A DNA stretch of 15,359 nt from Oscillospiraceae bacterium. GTDB lineage: Bacteria > Bacillota > Clostridia > Oscillospirales > Ruminococcaceae. The stretch spans positions 1-15,359 of the forward strand of contig JAITFV010000201.1 of NCBI GenBank assembly GCA_031281115.1. Reading direction: 5' to 3'. Shown here in pieces: positions 483 through 15,359 of this stretch; position 1 is the stretch's first letter, and each line of letters opens with the position of its first letter. Both the position numbers and the translations under genes were made by a program. The notes beneath the pieces are model-generated. The model was not told where the DNA came from, made no database searches, and worked only from the letters and a program-made list of their open reading frames with translations.

Positions 483-609
483 CCTTTAACTTAAAAAGCG
501 TTTCGCTTTTTAAGTTAAAGGGGCTTGCGCTGTTGCGACAGCGCCCGCTGCGCTCACGCAGCGGAAACCCGTTTAAATTGAAAATGTGGAACAGTTTTCA
601 ATTTAAACG
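483..609 (-). repeat. four-hairpin cassette, copy B (complete)
   Basis: This is the only complete copy of the A/B/C type. Hairpin 1 is 483-521 (18-base arms beginning CCTTTAACTTAAAAAGCG, loop TTT). Hairpin 2 is 527-544 (arms GCGCTGT/ACAGCGC, loop TGCG). Hairpin 3 is 545-564 (arms CCGCTGCG/CGCAGCGG, loop CTCA). Hairpin 4 is 570-609 (AT-rich, about 14 bp plus an inner ACAG/CTGT-like extension with one missing base). GGGCTT (521-526) and AAACCC (565-570) can pair around hairpins 2 and 3. The ends carry TATAGT on the plus strand (477-482) and TATAAT on the minus strand (615-610), so a -10-like box faces inward at each end. Confidence 0.92.
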
Positions 610-638
610 ATTATAGCATGGATTCCGCTAACTGTCAA
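610..638 (-). promoter_or_regulatory. perfect-consensus sigma-A promoter abutting cassette B
   Basis: On the minus strand TTGACA (638-633), a 17-base spacer and TATAAT (615-610) form an exact consensus promoter. The -10 box touches hairpin 4 of cassette B, so a transcript would begin inside that hairpin's first arm and read through the cassette toward the TnpW-like gene. The -35 box is part of a two-unit heptamer repeat (ATGACAG TTGACAG, 645-632). Confidence 0.75.
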
Positions 639-666
639 CTGTCATGTCCCCCTATTATAGTTAGTT

Positions 667-759
667 AAATTTAGATTGGAATGAATCCAATCTAAATTTT
701 CGCTCGCTACGCGGCGAGTTGCGGTGAAACCGCAACCATAGTCGTTTTAAACGACTATG
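667..759 (-). repeat. four-hairpin cassette, type E, downstream of mfd
   Basis: Four adjacent stem-loops are seen: 667-699 (14-bp AT-rich stem, loop ATGAA), 703-718 (CTCGC/GCGAG), 718-736 (GTTGCGGT/ACCGCAAC, loop GAA) and 737-759 (11-base arms starting CATAGTCG, one central base). The order AT-GC-GC-AT and the sizes mirror copies A/B/C, but the sequences are unrelated. It begins 12 bases after the mfd stop and probably folds at the operon 3' end. No U-run follows, so it is not a classic intrinsic terminator. A TATAAT lies just outside on the minus strand (659-654). Confidence 0.8.
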
Positions 760-3700: not shown

Positions 3701-4293
3701 AGCTTTTCTTTTAGTTCCTCTAAGTTTATTTCATCGTTCTGATTAATCGTGAGCGTTTGCGCTTTTAAGTCGGCAGGCGAAATTGTCAGCTGCCCTGCGG
3801 CTTCCGGTGTCGCGAGGACAATTGACAGCTGGCAGTTGGCAGTCGACAGTTTTGATAATACATTCAAGCGGCGGTATTCGTACTCTTTTGAATTAACTTC
3901 AAAATCACCGAAATTCAAGTCCTTCGCAGGGTATACAAGAGAAACTTCCGCGCCGCAGAAGGTGTTTATATCCTCCGAGAGGCGCATTGCTTCGCTCTCG
4001 GTTTCAACAAGAACCAACAAGGGGGGGCATCCCCCATGTTTTGAAGATTCAGCTCCGCCGTGCAGAGCGCCGTCCCCCGCAGCAATCGCCGCTAAGAAGT
4101 GCGCTTTGTGAACGTGCGAAAGCCCCGTTACCAATACAGGCAGGGGTGATGATAATTGACAATTGACAGTTGACAATTGACAATTGACAGTTGATAATTG
4201 ACAATTGACAGTTGACAATTGACAATTATTAATATTTCTGAGCAGATTCCGAAATTCCGGAATCTGCTCGGCTACACTGCGAAAAAAAGTCAA
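772..4293 (-). CDS. mfd: transcription-repair coupling factor Mfd
   Basis: This 1173-residue protein displaces stalled RNA polymerase and recruits UvrA to the lesion. Domains run in family order: UvrB-like N-terminal modules; the polymerase-interaction domain near 505-570 (GDYVVHQNYGIGIFEG); a RecG-like translocase with Walker A CGDVGFGKTE near 660, DEEQ near 761, LSATPIPRTLNM, and a C-terminal helicase motif ending QLRGRVGR; then the TRCF C-terminal domain near 1040-1140 (DAFIPEDYISS). The start is TTG, five bases after the upstream gene's stop; the first residues (TFFRSVAEQIPEFRNLL) fit the family N-terminus, so later starts are rejected. AAAGG lies 14 bases upstream. The N-terminal third contains several in-frame repeat-derived inserts, described separately. 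Length is still normal, so the surrounding N-terminal modules may be reduced. Confidence 0.96.
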   Translation of the reverse strand: MTFFRSVAEQIPEFRNLLRNINNCQLSTVNCQLSTVNCQLSTVNCQLSSPLPVLVTGLSHVHKAHFLAAIAAGDGALHGGAESSKHGGCPPLLVLVETESEAMRLSEDINTFCGAEVSLVYPAKDLNFGDFEVNSKEYEYRRLNVLSKLSTANCQLSIVLATPEAAGQLTISPADLKAQTLTINQNDEINLEELKEKLVETGFSRCDMVEGVAQFSVRGAIFDIFAPNNENPVRIEFWGDTADSLGFFDRETQRRIESVSEIKIAPCFEKNVGNDAPGVPLFNYAENCIILESVNCAESYRAASIRHEEDLKLAVESRGELCSPGKSNGSESPAQSSGRTQFIPTKRCKFMLTRGEFKEIAQNKTRAYFDTFMRGGGLQLSEILSVRANQLSSWSGEYKLLCSELTEYFRKGCAVVVFAGTEKAARTLALDLKDDGFPVDFSSDPKKIYAKRAYILAGTVGAGYDYADAKCVMLSLAKSATRTGTDDPVRPLIKRKRRRGEEIRSLTDINIGDYVVHQNYGIGIFEGVTKLAGDGVSKDYIKIKYAGTDVLYVPVTQLDMISRYIGNTDSVSLKLNKLHSDTWQKTKAKAKAAASELAEELIALYSKRLKSTGYKFPRDNSEQVEFEEHFNYIETDDQLRCIEEIKADMQTAKPMDRLLCGDVGFGKTEVALRGAFKCVMDGKQCALLCPTTVLAWQHYQTAIKRMENFPINIELLSRFRSAREIKQVLEKLKKGIVDLVIGTHRIVQSDVEFKNLGLVIIDEEQRFGVNHKEKFKEAFAGVDVLTLSATPIPRTLNMAMSGVRDMSVINTPPQDRQPVTTYVIEHDRGVVAQAINKELRRNGQVYYIHNRIETILDCAARIHEVCPEAKIGIAHGKLNEDELLEVWRKLLDGGIDVLVCTTLIETGVDVPNVNTLIIENADHMGLAQLHQLRGRVGRTNKRAYAYFMFRRGKVLTEISTKRLNVIREFTQFGSGFNIAMRDLEIRGAGSILGARQSGHLSAVGYDMYLKLLNEAVEEQKKGADPARNDGSAVGSTVDVKMDAFIPEDYISSAAQRIWCYKRIAEIRSEEDALDVTDELIDRYGEPPAPVAGLIEAAQVRNMAGTAGIREVLQDGGMLKIFTEKPDMEGVSRAVGAMGDRVALDFTSNAKISVKLIKGEEPLKTARTFLEAYT
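3260..3344. repeat. MITE-like element inside mfd
   Basis: This 85-bp element has 24-base terminal inverted repeats starting GTAGGG and ending TTCGCCCG at each end, with two mismatches, plus an internal hairpin CGCCCGC/GCGGGCG at 3279-3300. It is read in frame as about 30 residues of Mfd (roughly 317-345: Ser/Gly/Pro-rich, including GELCSPGKSNGSESP), a composition unlike the surrounding UvrB-like module. TTTC flanks both sides, but the 89-base period is not a multiple of three, so a clean target-site duplication is doubtful. Confidence 0.75.
3425..3482. repeat. paired hairpins inside mfd
   Basis: A perfect inverted repeat with 9-base arms (ATTATGCAG, loop TTTT) at 3425-3446 is followed by a GC-rich imperfect palindrome, GGAACGCC...GTCGTTCC, with GTAGGG at its outer edge on the minus strand. 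It encodes about residues 270-289 of Mfd (VGNDAPGVPLFNYAENCII). The second part looks like a small interspersed repeat; the first could be chance. Confidence 0.45.
3822..3849. repeat. degenerate heptamer array inside mfd
   Basis: Four tandem 7-mers (TTGACAG, CTGGCAG, TTGGCAG, TCGACAG) are related to the array at 4156-4225. In the mfd frame they give LSTANCQLS near residues 148-157, echoing the NCQLSTV peptide of the longer array. Confidence 0.7.
4021..4038. repeat. short G/C palindrome inside mfd
   Basis: A run of G followed by CAT and a run of C forms a short hairpin. It encodes about residues 85-91 of Mfd (KHGGCPP), within a stretch (DGALHGGAESSKHGGCPP) that separates two strands normally joined by a short loop in Mfd. 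It looks like a small inserted repeat. Confidence 0.4.
4156..4225. repeat. ten-unit heptamer array (TTGACAA/TTGACAG) in mfd
   Basis: Ten contiguous 7-mers are present with only one changed base (TTGATAA). Because three units equal 21 bases, mfd reads them as a seven-residue peptide repeat, NCQLSTV, near residues 23-46. The array lies between the first helix of Mfd and its first core strand (PVLVTGLSHVHKAHF). The same heptamer appears in degenerate form at 3822-3849, in the YfhO-like gene (6717-6898) and in the promoter at 632-645. Confidence 0.92.
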
Positions 4294-5771: not shown

Positions 5772-8700
5772 TTAAAGAGTTCCGGGGCCGAACGGAGGAA
5801 TGAATATATCTTCATCGTCATCTTGCAAAGACGGCGGGGCGACCGGCGGCAGTTCGTTAATCTCTTCCTCGGCAACTTCTTCAAATGTCCCGACAAACTC
5901 GGTTTCATCAGCCATAATAAATTCAAACTCGCCGAATATATCGTCAACATCCCACGGAGCCGGTGTGTGTAGTGTGGGTTCGGACTTTTCCGGCTCGGGT
6001 TCAGGCTCGGATTCTTCATCAAAAAATTCACTGCTCGGAACATTATTATTGTTCCCTGCCACAAGGAAATCTTCCATATCTTCTTCAAATGTAAATACAG
6101 GCGCTGCCTCGGATTCGGAGATTACGGGGCGCGCTTCCTCTGCCGGCACAAGCTCCGTTATCTCGAATTCTTCCTCATACGTATCAGAAATATCGCCCGA
6201 GAATGACTGCTCAAGGTCTTCCCGCTGCTGCATAAGTTCAAGCTCAAGCGCTCGTCTGCGCGCCGCGAAGTCGATTTGTCCGAGGGTGGGCGGGGGAGGC
6301 GGAGGTTCAGCTTCTTCGAGTTCGGGCTCGGATTCAAGTTCCGATTCAAGCTCGGGTTCTTCCGGTTCCGGCTCCGGCTCCGGCTCAAAGAAAAAGTCCG
6401 GCACAGATAAATCATCAAGTTTTATATCTTCCTGCGGAACGGCAGAACCGCCCTCCTCTGCATCTGGCTGCATTTCTATTTCCGGTGCAACAATATCGTC
6501 AATCGCTATATCCGGTTCTTCTTCCGGCTCAAAATTAAGCTCTACCTCCGGCACAGGCAGGAAGCCGTCGTCGATTTCTATATCCGGTTCTTCGGGGAAA
6601 TTATCATCGTCCCCTTCAACAGGCTCCTCATTAATTTCAGCGAAGTCAGCCGCTATGCTTTCAAAGCTTTCGTCGCTTCCTAAAATCAATTCATTTTGCT
6701 CTTCTTCCTGTTCTTCCTCAACTGTCAACTCTTCATTGTCAACTGTCAATTGTTCGTCCGGTTCTTCCTCAACTATCAATTGTTCATCGTCAATTGTCAA
6801 TTCTTCATTGTCAACTGTCAATTGTTCGTCCGGTTCTTCCTCAACTGTCAATTCTTCATTATCAACTGTCAATTGTTCGTCGGGTTCTTCCTCAAAGAAC
6901 GACTTCGGCATGAACGAGACAGGTTCGGGAACTGCTTCCTCTTCATTAAGGATAATGTCTCCGTCAAGAGGGGGACCATTAAGCGGCGGGGGGGCTTCCG
7001 AAGGGGCAACTCCGTAAGTAAACGGCGTGAACAGCGGTTCTTCTTCTTTTATGGCTTCTTCCGCGATTTCAAACTCAAACCCTTCATCAAACTCAATCGG
7101 CAGTTCCTCTCCGCCCGCTGCCGTCTGCCCACTCTCAGCAGATAACAGAACACCGGCTTTTCTCATCTTCAAATAAAGTATGCAAAGCAGCGCAAATATC
7201 AGTATGCCGCCGCCCGAAAGGAACAGCGCAATCGGATAGCCGGCAGTCGTGAATTTAAGTTCAACCACGTGCTTCCCGGCAGGCAGGCGAATACCGATTA
7301 ACGCATCTAAAACCGTGATGTAATCGGTCGGAACGCCGTCAATCGTCACCGTCCAGCCCGGCTCGGCGGGAATCGTGGTAAACAATAATCTTTCGGTATC
7401 GGCAAAAACATCAATCCGCAGGTTTGTCGGCGAACGCCCGGTAACTGCGGTCTGTGCGTTAAGCGCGTGTAGTTCCGCGATTGCCTCACCGTAAAGCCCG
7501 GTATCCATGTACGCGAAGTAAGCGTTTCTGTAATAGAAATCATCGCGAAGAAGCGTAAGCGTGACCGAGAAGTTCTCGCCCTCACTGAATTCGCCGAGGT
7601 CTGCTATGCAGTAATCGTCGTACTCAAAGTACCAGCTGCGCCAATCATTGCGCGTTACCGCGCCTTCCTCGTCCTTTCGCTGAACCGTAACGGAAGCTCT
7701 TCTTTCGTGCGCGCTCGGCAGCCACATGAAGATTCTGCCGTCGGCTTCGGCGGTCATGCTGTAAATAATCCTTGCGTTCCCTGCGGCGACAGCGTATTCG
7801 CTCACAGCATGATACGAGAAGTGTCCGTCGTTTGTGCCGCCTTCGATTATATTTTCGCTGATTTTTTCAATATCCGAATTATTTATAACTCTGAAATATT
7901 CATTTACTCTTGTTTCGCCGAGCATGGTGGAAAGCAAACGGTTCTGCCGTCTGAAAATCTGCACATCATCGGATGGGAACTCGTCAAAGCTGAAATCCGC
8001 GAGCCTCATGTCTGTCAAATATGCAACCGGTAGTGCGTTTTCGTTATGCCTGATGCTTAAAATGCCGTCTTCAAGCGGGCGTCCGTAGCTGTACGAACTG
8101 TGTGACAGCACATACCGTACGCCGAACAGGTCGTTTATAAGCGGAGTTGCGCCGCTGTAGCGGGTATAATGCCCGCGTGACGTCATTCCGAGCTTGCCGA
8201 GCAGCGTAACCGCACCCTCGTTAAAAGTACTCGCGCTATGCGAAAGCCCGAACATTTCAAGCGCTAACGGGTCGTTCACGGTACGGTGGAAGGTTTTTTC
8301 CATACGGTATAAGCCGTCGTCAGCGAGTGTTATATCCTTCACCGCATTCCGCAGAGGAACGACAAAATCAACATAAGTCGCACGGTCGGAATAAGTTATA
8401 TCCTCGTCCTGTTTATTAAGGTTCGTGTAAGTATTATGGAAAAGCTCCAGCGCGACTGCTACGCCGATAGTTACCGCCAGCGCAGTCTTGCCGAACCGCT
8501 TGTTCTTGTTACAAAGCAGAATGATTGTCAATACTACTAAAATGAGCAGCGCAGGAATAACTACAGCCGCATTGTCAAACAACTCACGTCCGTTTTCGCC
8601 GAGCGCTGCATCGAAAGTATCGCGGCTCTCGAAGTAAACTAACAAGCCGAAGATTCCGAGCGCGGAAATACCTATTGCCCGCCTTGAAAATTCCCGCAAC

Positions 8701-12122: not shown

Positions 12123-12134
12123 TATCTCCTAATA

Positions 12135-12244
12135 CTGTTATCCATTTAAGAAATGGATAACAGGGTTCCGCGGCTTGCGAGCCGCGGGCGCTGTCACAGC
12201 AGCGCCATCCCTAAAATCCAATAAACCAGTTTATTGGATTTTAG
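12135..12244 (-). repeat. four-hairpin cassette, type D, in operon leader
   Basis: Hairpins are 12135-12163 (13-bp stem CTGTTATCCATTT, loop AAG), 12168-12187 (CCGCGGCT/AGCCGCGG, loop TGCG), 12188-12205 (GCGCTG/CAGCGC) and 12211-12244 (15-bp stem CTAAAATCCAATAAA, loop CCAG). AGGG and CCCT beside the inner pair can close a three-way junction. Arm sequences differ from copies A/B/C, but the order and the TGCG loop (CGCA on the minus strand) are kept. Transcripts from the promoter at 12262-12290 must pass through it, and its last hairpin ends four bases before the AGGAG ribosome site of the next gene. Confidence 0.85.
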
Positions 12245-12261
12245 TATAATTATTGCCTTTC

Positions 12262-12290
12262 ATTATACTATACATTATATGGTTTGTCAA
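12262..12290 (-). promoter_or_regulatory. perfect-consensus sigma-A promoter of the long minus operon
   Basis: On the minus strand TTGACA (12290-12285), a 17-base spacer and TATAAT (12267-12262) match the consensus exactly. The -35 box touches the stop codon of the permease gene. The predicted start is near 12255, giving a leader of about 130 bases that holds cassette D. It probably drives the membrane protein, DUF4097, GT2, YfhO, coaX, ECF-S and mfd genes. Confidence 0.8.
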
Positions 12291-15230: not shown

Positions 15231-15280
15231 TTAGACTTTTCCGCTAACTCTTGAATGAGATGACTGTATTGATATATAGT

Positions 15281-15359
15281 CCTTTAACTTAAAAAGCGAA
15301 ACGCTTTTTAAGTTAAAGGGGCTTGCGCTGTTGCGACAGCGCCCGCTGCGCTCACGCAG
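15281..15359 (-). repeat. four-hairpin cassette, copy C (3' end cut by window)
   Basis: This copy matches B across hairpin 1 (15281-15319), hairpin 2 and most of hairpin 3, except that the loop of hairpin 1 is AAA instead of TTT. TATAGT precedes it on the plus strand (15275-15280), as at copy B. It lies 50 bases past the ATPase stop. TTGAAT at 15251-15256 precedes a TATATA after 16 bases, a weak outward promoter-like pair. Confidence 0.9.

Follow-up and report, generated by a model that had tools for sequence, protein, structure and literature searches.

Four-hairpin units in an Oscillospiraceae genome are most likely MITE-like elements with IS630-type ends and exchangeable arms

The window analyzed here is the entire contig C164 (15,359 nt) of genome G000, a MAG of 2.18 Mb in 333 contigs that is 87% complete. 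Element B, a full-length MITE-like unit of family A, spans positions 479-613 of the plus strand (135 nt, TAGTCC...CGATTA), between two copies of a TA target duplication evident in the sequence (477-478 and 614-615). It consists of a left AT-rich palindromic arm (483-521) with an 18-bp stem and a TTT loop, a first GC hairpin (527-544, GCGCTGT TGCG ACAGCGC) that shows almost no variation across 14 aligned members, a second GC hairpin (545-564, CCGC...GCGG) in which the inner pairs covary across the same members, and a right AT-rich palindromic arm delineated by the fold (570-609). Two other family A copies on the plus strand are cut by the contig ends, namely, element A (1-114, 97% match, followed by TA at 115-116), in which the contig start truncates the left arm, and element E (15277-15359, 96% match, preceded by TA at 15275-15276). 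The left-arm loop of E is AAA rather than TTT, that is, this arm is inverted. Element C (658-757, plus strand, 100 nt, TAGTTAG...CGACTA) belongs to family C, has a different core, and is flanked by TA on the left and TG on the right. Element D of family D (12133-12246, minus strand, 114 nt, TACTGTTATCC...TTTTAGTA in the plus strand reading) lies between TAA target duplications read from the sequence (12130-12132 and 12247-12249); in the minus strand reading, its core (12162-12212) can be aligned with that of family A. The 97-aa ORF adjoining element A has no Pfam match at E<=0.001. The window also contains heptanucleotide repeats of the TTGACAA/TTGACAG type at 4150-4233 and 6709-6903, extending across the start of an mfd-like ORF and across a long 1410-aa ORF; at L080, one family C copy is truncated into an array of this type.

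B, C and D each fold into four successive hairpins in the order AT-rich, GC-rich, GC-rich, AT-rich, with z-scores of -12.46 (region 477-616), -10.49 (655-770) and -11.07 (12125-12255), and in each case none of 200 shuffles folds as well. Of the five four-hairpin copies in the original prediction, these three thus hold, far beyond shuffles, and the remaining two, A and E, represent B cut short where the contig ends; the true ends of the units differ by a few bases from those originally given. The relationships among the units have to be redrawn. The near-identical set consists of 1-114, 479-613 and 15277-15359, and the copy placed at 667-759, once counted in this set, falls outside it. D and E had been considered unrelated to the other copies and to each other; however, E is a family A copy, and the core of D, in reverse complement, matches the A/B core at 79% over 53 nt. 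Instead of unrelated sequence types, an alignable core is common to families A, D, F and H as well as members in other species, and only the core of family C is unlike that of the other families; C is placed by its architecture, TA target and one similar end.

The cores of the 14 diverse members show 80% mean column identity, with the strand of each member chosen by the analyst. In the two GC hairpins, 95.7% of the alignment cells are paired, compared to 53% at most in slid controls, and 21 cells are double-changed, against a mean of 5.5 in shuffles, none of the 500 reaching the observed value. Two other counts are unremarkable, namely, that of double-changed pairs (5 vs 3.3, reached by 22 of 500 shuffles) and that of pair types (11 vs 10.7, reached by 287 of 500). 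It is the inner pairs of the second GC hairpin that give rise to the covariation signal, the first hairpin being nearly invariant. In most families, the core is bracketed by GGG(ATT)/(AAT)CCC, which can pair; with the GGG/CCC stem added, 94.4% of the cells are paired, and the stem itself contains no double change. In other genera of the family, six loci (L304, L306, L308, L309, L310 and L313) contain repeats of other kinds, in which further hairpins surround a core resembling GGG(ATT)-hairpin-hairpin-(AAT)CCC; these have no Rfam match.

A structure-only scan with a four-hairpin descriptor, which had been proposed as a check, identified two units in the window (B and D) and one in 165,299 bases of G000, with none in 1,652,990 dinucleotide-shuffled bases and none in 220,000 bases of a congener that lacks the family. 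This descriptor is too insensitive to decide the matter: it missed element C and a known mutated copy on contig C35, and its single match in the G000 sample is on C52, one of the 4 contigs chosen for known copies, with none on the 16 contigs picked by number. A preliminary hairpin descriptor recovered none of the window copies; it picked up one AT-GC-GC-AT unit (on C52) and, in both the sample and the control genome, a single additional run of four hairpins. The other proposed check was a covariance model. The core-only model R1 was built from 14 seeds, 5 from G000 and 9 from six congeners, and yields at least 142 matches in G000 at E<=1e-3 (150 of 1998 candidates scored), one place, on C272, being matched on both strands. 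Within the genus, at least 9 of the 71 genomes, G000 included, match R1 at E<=1e-5 (83 candidates scored per genome). Among the eight positive genomes of the other 70 congeners, six supplied seeds and G042 did not; G045 harbors at least 29 matches, and G018 has a single weak one (1.9e-6), without arms. A family-level sample of 396 genomes includes at least 11 with a match, G000 among them (15 candidates scored per genome).

The individual families are abundant in G000. The 45-nt pattern of the family A core is found 85 times at up to 3 mismatches, compared to zero for the reversed control pattern; family C occupies 27 places at E<=3.1e-15, and family D at least 40 (40 of 193 candidates scored), with partial copies counted in both cases. 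Thus, D does have further relatives, the absence of which would have spoken against the original idea. Several of the 30 folded D-related loci lack one GC hairpin or have another arm, and genome G012 contains relatives of family A with up to 82% identity over long matches. Of the 85 family A cores, 29 start no more than 50 nt from the beginning of a contig, so these repeats break the G000 assembly and account for part of the fragmentation of this MAG. Searches with element B in plasmid and phage collections, and with one exact 28-nt core pattern (spelled differently from B) in IMG/VR, gave no match, and neither the window nor 12 additional loci had an Rfam match reaching the gathering score. 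Four loci (L103, L109, L117 and L331) share a recurring unit with ends like TATAGCCAGTTAAGTTAAAAACGCT, which points to a further family in G000.

Boundaries and flanks were counted in copies with both ends caught by end patterns, such that copies with altered ends drop out. Family A extends from TAGTCC to CGATTA, with TA on both flanks in all 23 such copies, 17 of which are 135 nt long; the units overall are about 95-140 nt. TA is present on both flanks in 14 of the 16 copies of family C (TAGTTAG...CGACTA) and in two of the three copies of family H. These TA flanks alone say little because mismatched flank pairs agree about as often (in 1.0, 0.89 and 0.67 of the draws for A, C and H, respectively). 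In family D (TACTGTTATCC...TTTTAGTA), identical 3-bp TNA flanks are found in 8 of 10 copies, compared to 0.30 for mismatched flank pairs, and in family F, in 3 of 3, compared to 0.34. For the TA families, the case for target duplication is carried by nested insertions, in which the duplicated target is on display. At L060, the left arm of a D copy, TGGATAACAGGG in the usual D reading, is split by a family A element as TGGATA...TAACAGGG; at L324, another D copy is split by a family H element at the same TA. A family C copy is split by family A at L013, and L070 has a C at one end of a D. The terminal inverted repeats are short and imperfect, TAGTC/TAATC in A, TAGT in C and TACT in D. Altogether, the units display each of the MITE features that we examined: they are short and encompass no transposase gene, possess terminal inverted repeats and target site duplications, and exist in multiple dispersed copies.

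The ends of several families resemble those of IS630 elements. The DDE_3 domain is encoded in 10 of the 71 genomes of the genus, including G000, and the IS630 genes of G012 terminate in AAGTTAATCGACTA or CAAGTTAATTGACTA, followed by TA. We compared the terminal 20 nt of each family with IS630 ends, taking the best match, against 5000 shuffles. The left ends of families A and H each match a G012 IS630 end at 17 of 20 positions (1 of 5000 shuffles as good in both cases), as does the left end of G012a to an IS630 end (0 of 5000); the right end of A matches at 15 (18 of 5000), and the left end of C at 14 (39 of 5000). The right end of C, at 11 of 20, is not significant (568 of 5000), nor are the ends of family F, also at 11 (633 and 605 of 5000). 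The ends of family D show a weak likeness, 13 of 20, to those of type-2 IS630 (81 and 472 of 5000), and its left end matches a type-1 IS630 end at 12 (323 of 5000). Thus, IS630-like ends are a feature of families A, H, G012a and G012b and of the left end of C. The target is TA in A, C and H, and TNA in D and F, as in the type-2 element of G012 (L175), whose one complete copy has TTA/TTA flanks.

A complete IS630 element with TA-flanked ends of the same type, consisting of orfA (HTH_Tnp_IS630) and orfB (DDE_3), is present in Sporolactobacillus mangiferae (L185). In G000, the 3' end of a type-2 IS630 was located at the start of C237, with the gene cut by the contig start; this is the sole DDE_3 match in the assembly. 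Type-1 IS630 was not found there, a weak absence because the MAG is 87% complete and split into 333 contigs. G045 retains a short type-1-like remnant (E 2.7e-5). With this remnant excluded, 3 of the 9 genomes of the genus that contain the core have an IS630 DDE gene, compared to 7 of the 62 others, which is no clear association of IS630 with the core. A different IS630 of G012 (L154) has no such ends within 1500 bases, as judged by eye.

The arms are self-complementary within an element (95% and 93%), in contrast to 49% and 47% between elements and 44% and 42% in shuffles; in these means, the stem of the left arm of B entered wrongly as 4 bp, for which the later arm-stem scoring gives 18 bp. 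In the arm-stem test, 55 core places were offered, seeds included, and 53 had enough flank. Both arm stems reach 10 bp in 29 of the 53, compared to none of 2120 mononucleotide-shuffled flanks. Among the 33 places freshly taken beyond the initial ones, 12 have both arms; hence, many cores carry one arm or none that this test detects. Greedy clustering at 75% identity sorts the 76 arms that are 10 nt or longer into 24 groups.

We traced several apparent chimeras. L325 combines the left arm and core of H with a family A arm at the right end, between TA flanks, whereas in L332, an F arm, of the TNA type, is joined to one half of a family A element, of the TA type. In L334, an F left arm and a D arm surround a single GC hairpin, with unequal flanks. 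L111 likewise has one GC hairpin, with a D arm, an F-like arm and identical TTA flanks; the same kinds of arms are combined in L108, between unequal flanks. In L050 of G046, a genome of about 40 contigs, the other D end has taken the place of the outer end of a D arm, with TTA on the flanks. Single hairpins also occur in both orientations, the left-arm loop as TTT and AAA (element E; L025) and the loop of the second GC hairpin as CTCA and TGAG (L320). The flips and chimeras look like products of recombination or template switching at palindromes. The chimeras are seen in the assembly, and because assembly breaks inside these repeats, some may be assembly errors.

Taken together, these observations make it very likely (we put the probability at about 0.9) that the units are MITE-like non-autonomous transposable elements with IS630-type ends that insert at TA or TNA targets and exchange arms. 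Each terminal AT-rich hairpin would consist of an IS630-type terminal repeat followed by its own inverted copy, with the core of two GC hairpins in between. The ends would be bound by an IS630-family transposase produced elsewhere, which would integrate the unit at TA in families A, C and H or at TNA in D and F and thereby duplicate the target site. Arms would recombine between elements, giving rise to chimeras, and single hairpins would flip; the probable mechanism is replication-associated template switching or exchange of strands at palindromes. Movement by IS630 transposases, the TNA-type partner and the mode of arm exchange are inferred. The pairing of the GC hairpins, together with the double-changed cells, supports conservation of shape, in line with the originally suggested selection on structure, and the chimeras, in which arms of different families share one core, support the exchange of stems as modules. 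With the complementarity of arms within elements, the evidence supports a shape that is kept while the arms change, in a family of mobile elements and not in a host regulatory cassette. As for the layout, which was initially matched to no known terminator or REP type, the nested insertions and target duplications point to mobile elements rather than to an unknown host feature, as do the copy number, the terminal inverted repeats and the IS630-like character of most TA-type ends.

Among the other explanations, that of host regulatory cassettes, i.e., bidirectional terminators or structured RNAs held between genes by selection, draws on the genomic setting. The units are close to ORFs (median distances of 26 and 65 nt), and no ORF of 100 aa or more crosses any of the 33 copies that have 500 nt of sequence on both sides, a test that a gene broken by an insertion would escape. 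In the stretch containing D, a single terminator-like site (GC stem plus T run) is present, the right arm of D itself, and D lies between a perfect consensus promoter (12262-12290, minus strand) and the gene 12122-11814, so that it may be part of the 5' leader of this gene. The stretch with B and C, however, contains no such site, and terminators are not the common feature of the units. Under crude ORF calls, 23 of the 31 classified copies are located between co-directional ORFs, 13 opposite to the element and 10 along it, compared to 4 between convergent and 4 between divergent ORFs. Coupled with the lack of Rfam matches at the gathering score and with the near-identical copies, target duplications and nested insertions, this makes a regulatory cassette very unlikely. 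Promoter-like sequences are associated with element B as well: the flanking TTGACA and the right end of B form a perfect consensus promoter on the minus strand (610-638, 12 of 12 positions, TG before the -10 box), which reads through B towards the ORF 405-112. The element ends carry inward -10-like boxes (TATAAT, TATAGT, TATACT). An insertion preference for sites with a -35 box at 16-18 nt was considered and rejected, given that 5 of 182 ends match at 5 or more of 6 positions, with no excess over other spacings.

The multiple palindromes and the high copy number could also suggest repeats of the REP/BIME type that rely on a Y1 (RAYT) transposase, or IS200/IS605 derivatives that carry palindromes. 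Such an origin is even less probable because the units have terminal inverted repeats with TA or TNA duplications, and the A and H ends are similar to those of IS630; to our knowledge, Y1-type elements leave no target duplication. A more serious contender, although still improbable, is that arms are not exchanged and the families arose independently around a convergent core. The arms could come from different IS630 ends, and the family C core is unlike the rest, which is compatible with this scenario; against it stand the alignment of the 14 cores (at 80% mean column identity, strands chosen) and the elements in which one core carries arms from two families. Chance formation of the hairpins in DNA between genes has a negligible probability considering that no shuffle equaled the fold of B, C or D and no shuffled flanks gave the paired arm stems found at 29 of the 53 core places.

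Bacteria are already known to carry MITEs that target TA and have IS630-like ends, and TATA-ended MITEs are thought to derive from IS630 (PMC4853749). The closest known system appears to be RUP, the repeat unit of pneumococcus, an intergenic element of about 107 bp with about 110 copies, a TA target and IS630-like ends, for which mobilization by IS630-Spn1 has been proposed (PMC2229807, PMC3049150). As described, RUP shares the size, copy number, target and type of ends with the units examined here. However, its terminal repeats pair with each other (PMC3049150), whereas in the four-hairpin units, each end folds on itself, two GC hairpins separate the ends, and the one core comes with many types of arm. 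BOX elements of Streptococcus pneumoniae are likewise modular, structured and present in high copy number (PMC3049150), but vary by modules, with boxB absent or multiple; the four-hairpin units vary mainly in arm sequence, some lacking one GC hairpin. The enterobacterial ERIC/IRU (127 bp) is of similar size, repeated and structured once transcribed, and its description in PMC2229807 includes no four-hairpin order. According to the same source, CIR is the exception among bacterial repeats, in that all others fold with the 5' end paired to the 3' end. CIR of Caulobacter, about 110 bp long, has two separate stem-loop arms and a linker and carries GANTC sites; its description there includes no GC-hairpin core, in contrast to the four-hairpin units. 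In the open-access literature, as judged by titles and the openings of abstracts, we found no account of four-hairpin or stem-swapping MITEs in Oscillospiraceae. What differs here is the combination of self-folding ends, a conserved core of two GC hairpins, and many arm types in two target classes.

Our leading guess as to the role of the core is that self-contained hairpins make insertion near co-transcribed genes tolerable and keep the ends accessible to the transposase. More speculatively, and with the odds rather against it, the double-hairpin core could be a mobile module in its own right, selected for its fold and passing between MITE families that depend on different IS630 transposases and targets (TA, TNA). 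Such a module would gain palindromic ends by stem exchange, and its lineage would survive by changing transposase; the distant GGG(ATT)-hairpin-hairpin-(AAT)CCC units of other Oscillospiraceae genera would then be older branches. The elements described here form a natural series, with one folded core and about 24 groups of arms, in which structure is conserved while sequence turns over. This series makes it possible to test what hairpins contribute to the mobility of MITEs and to their tolerance by the host, and suggests that non-autonomous elements can change transposase via end swapping.
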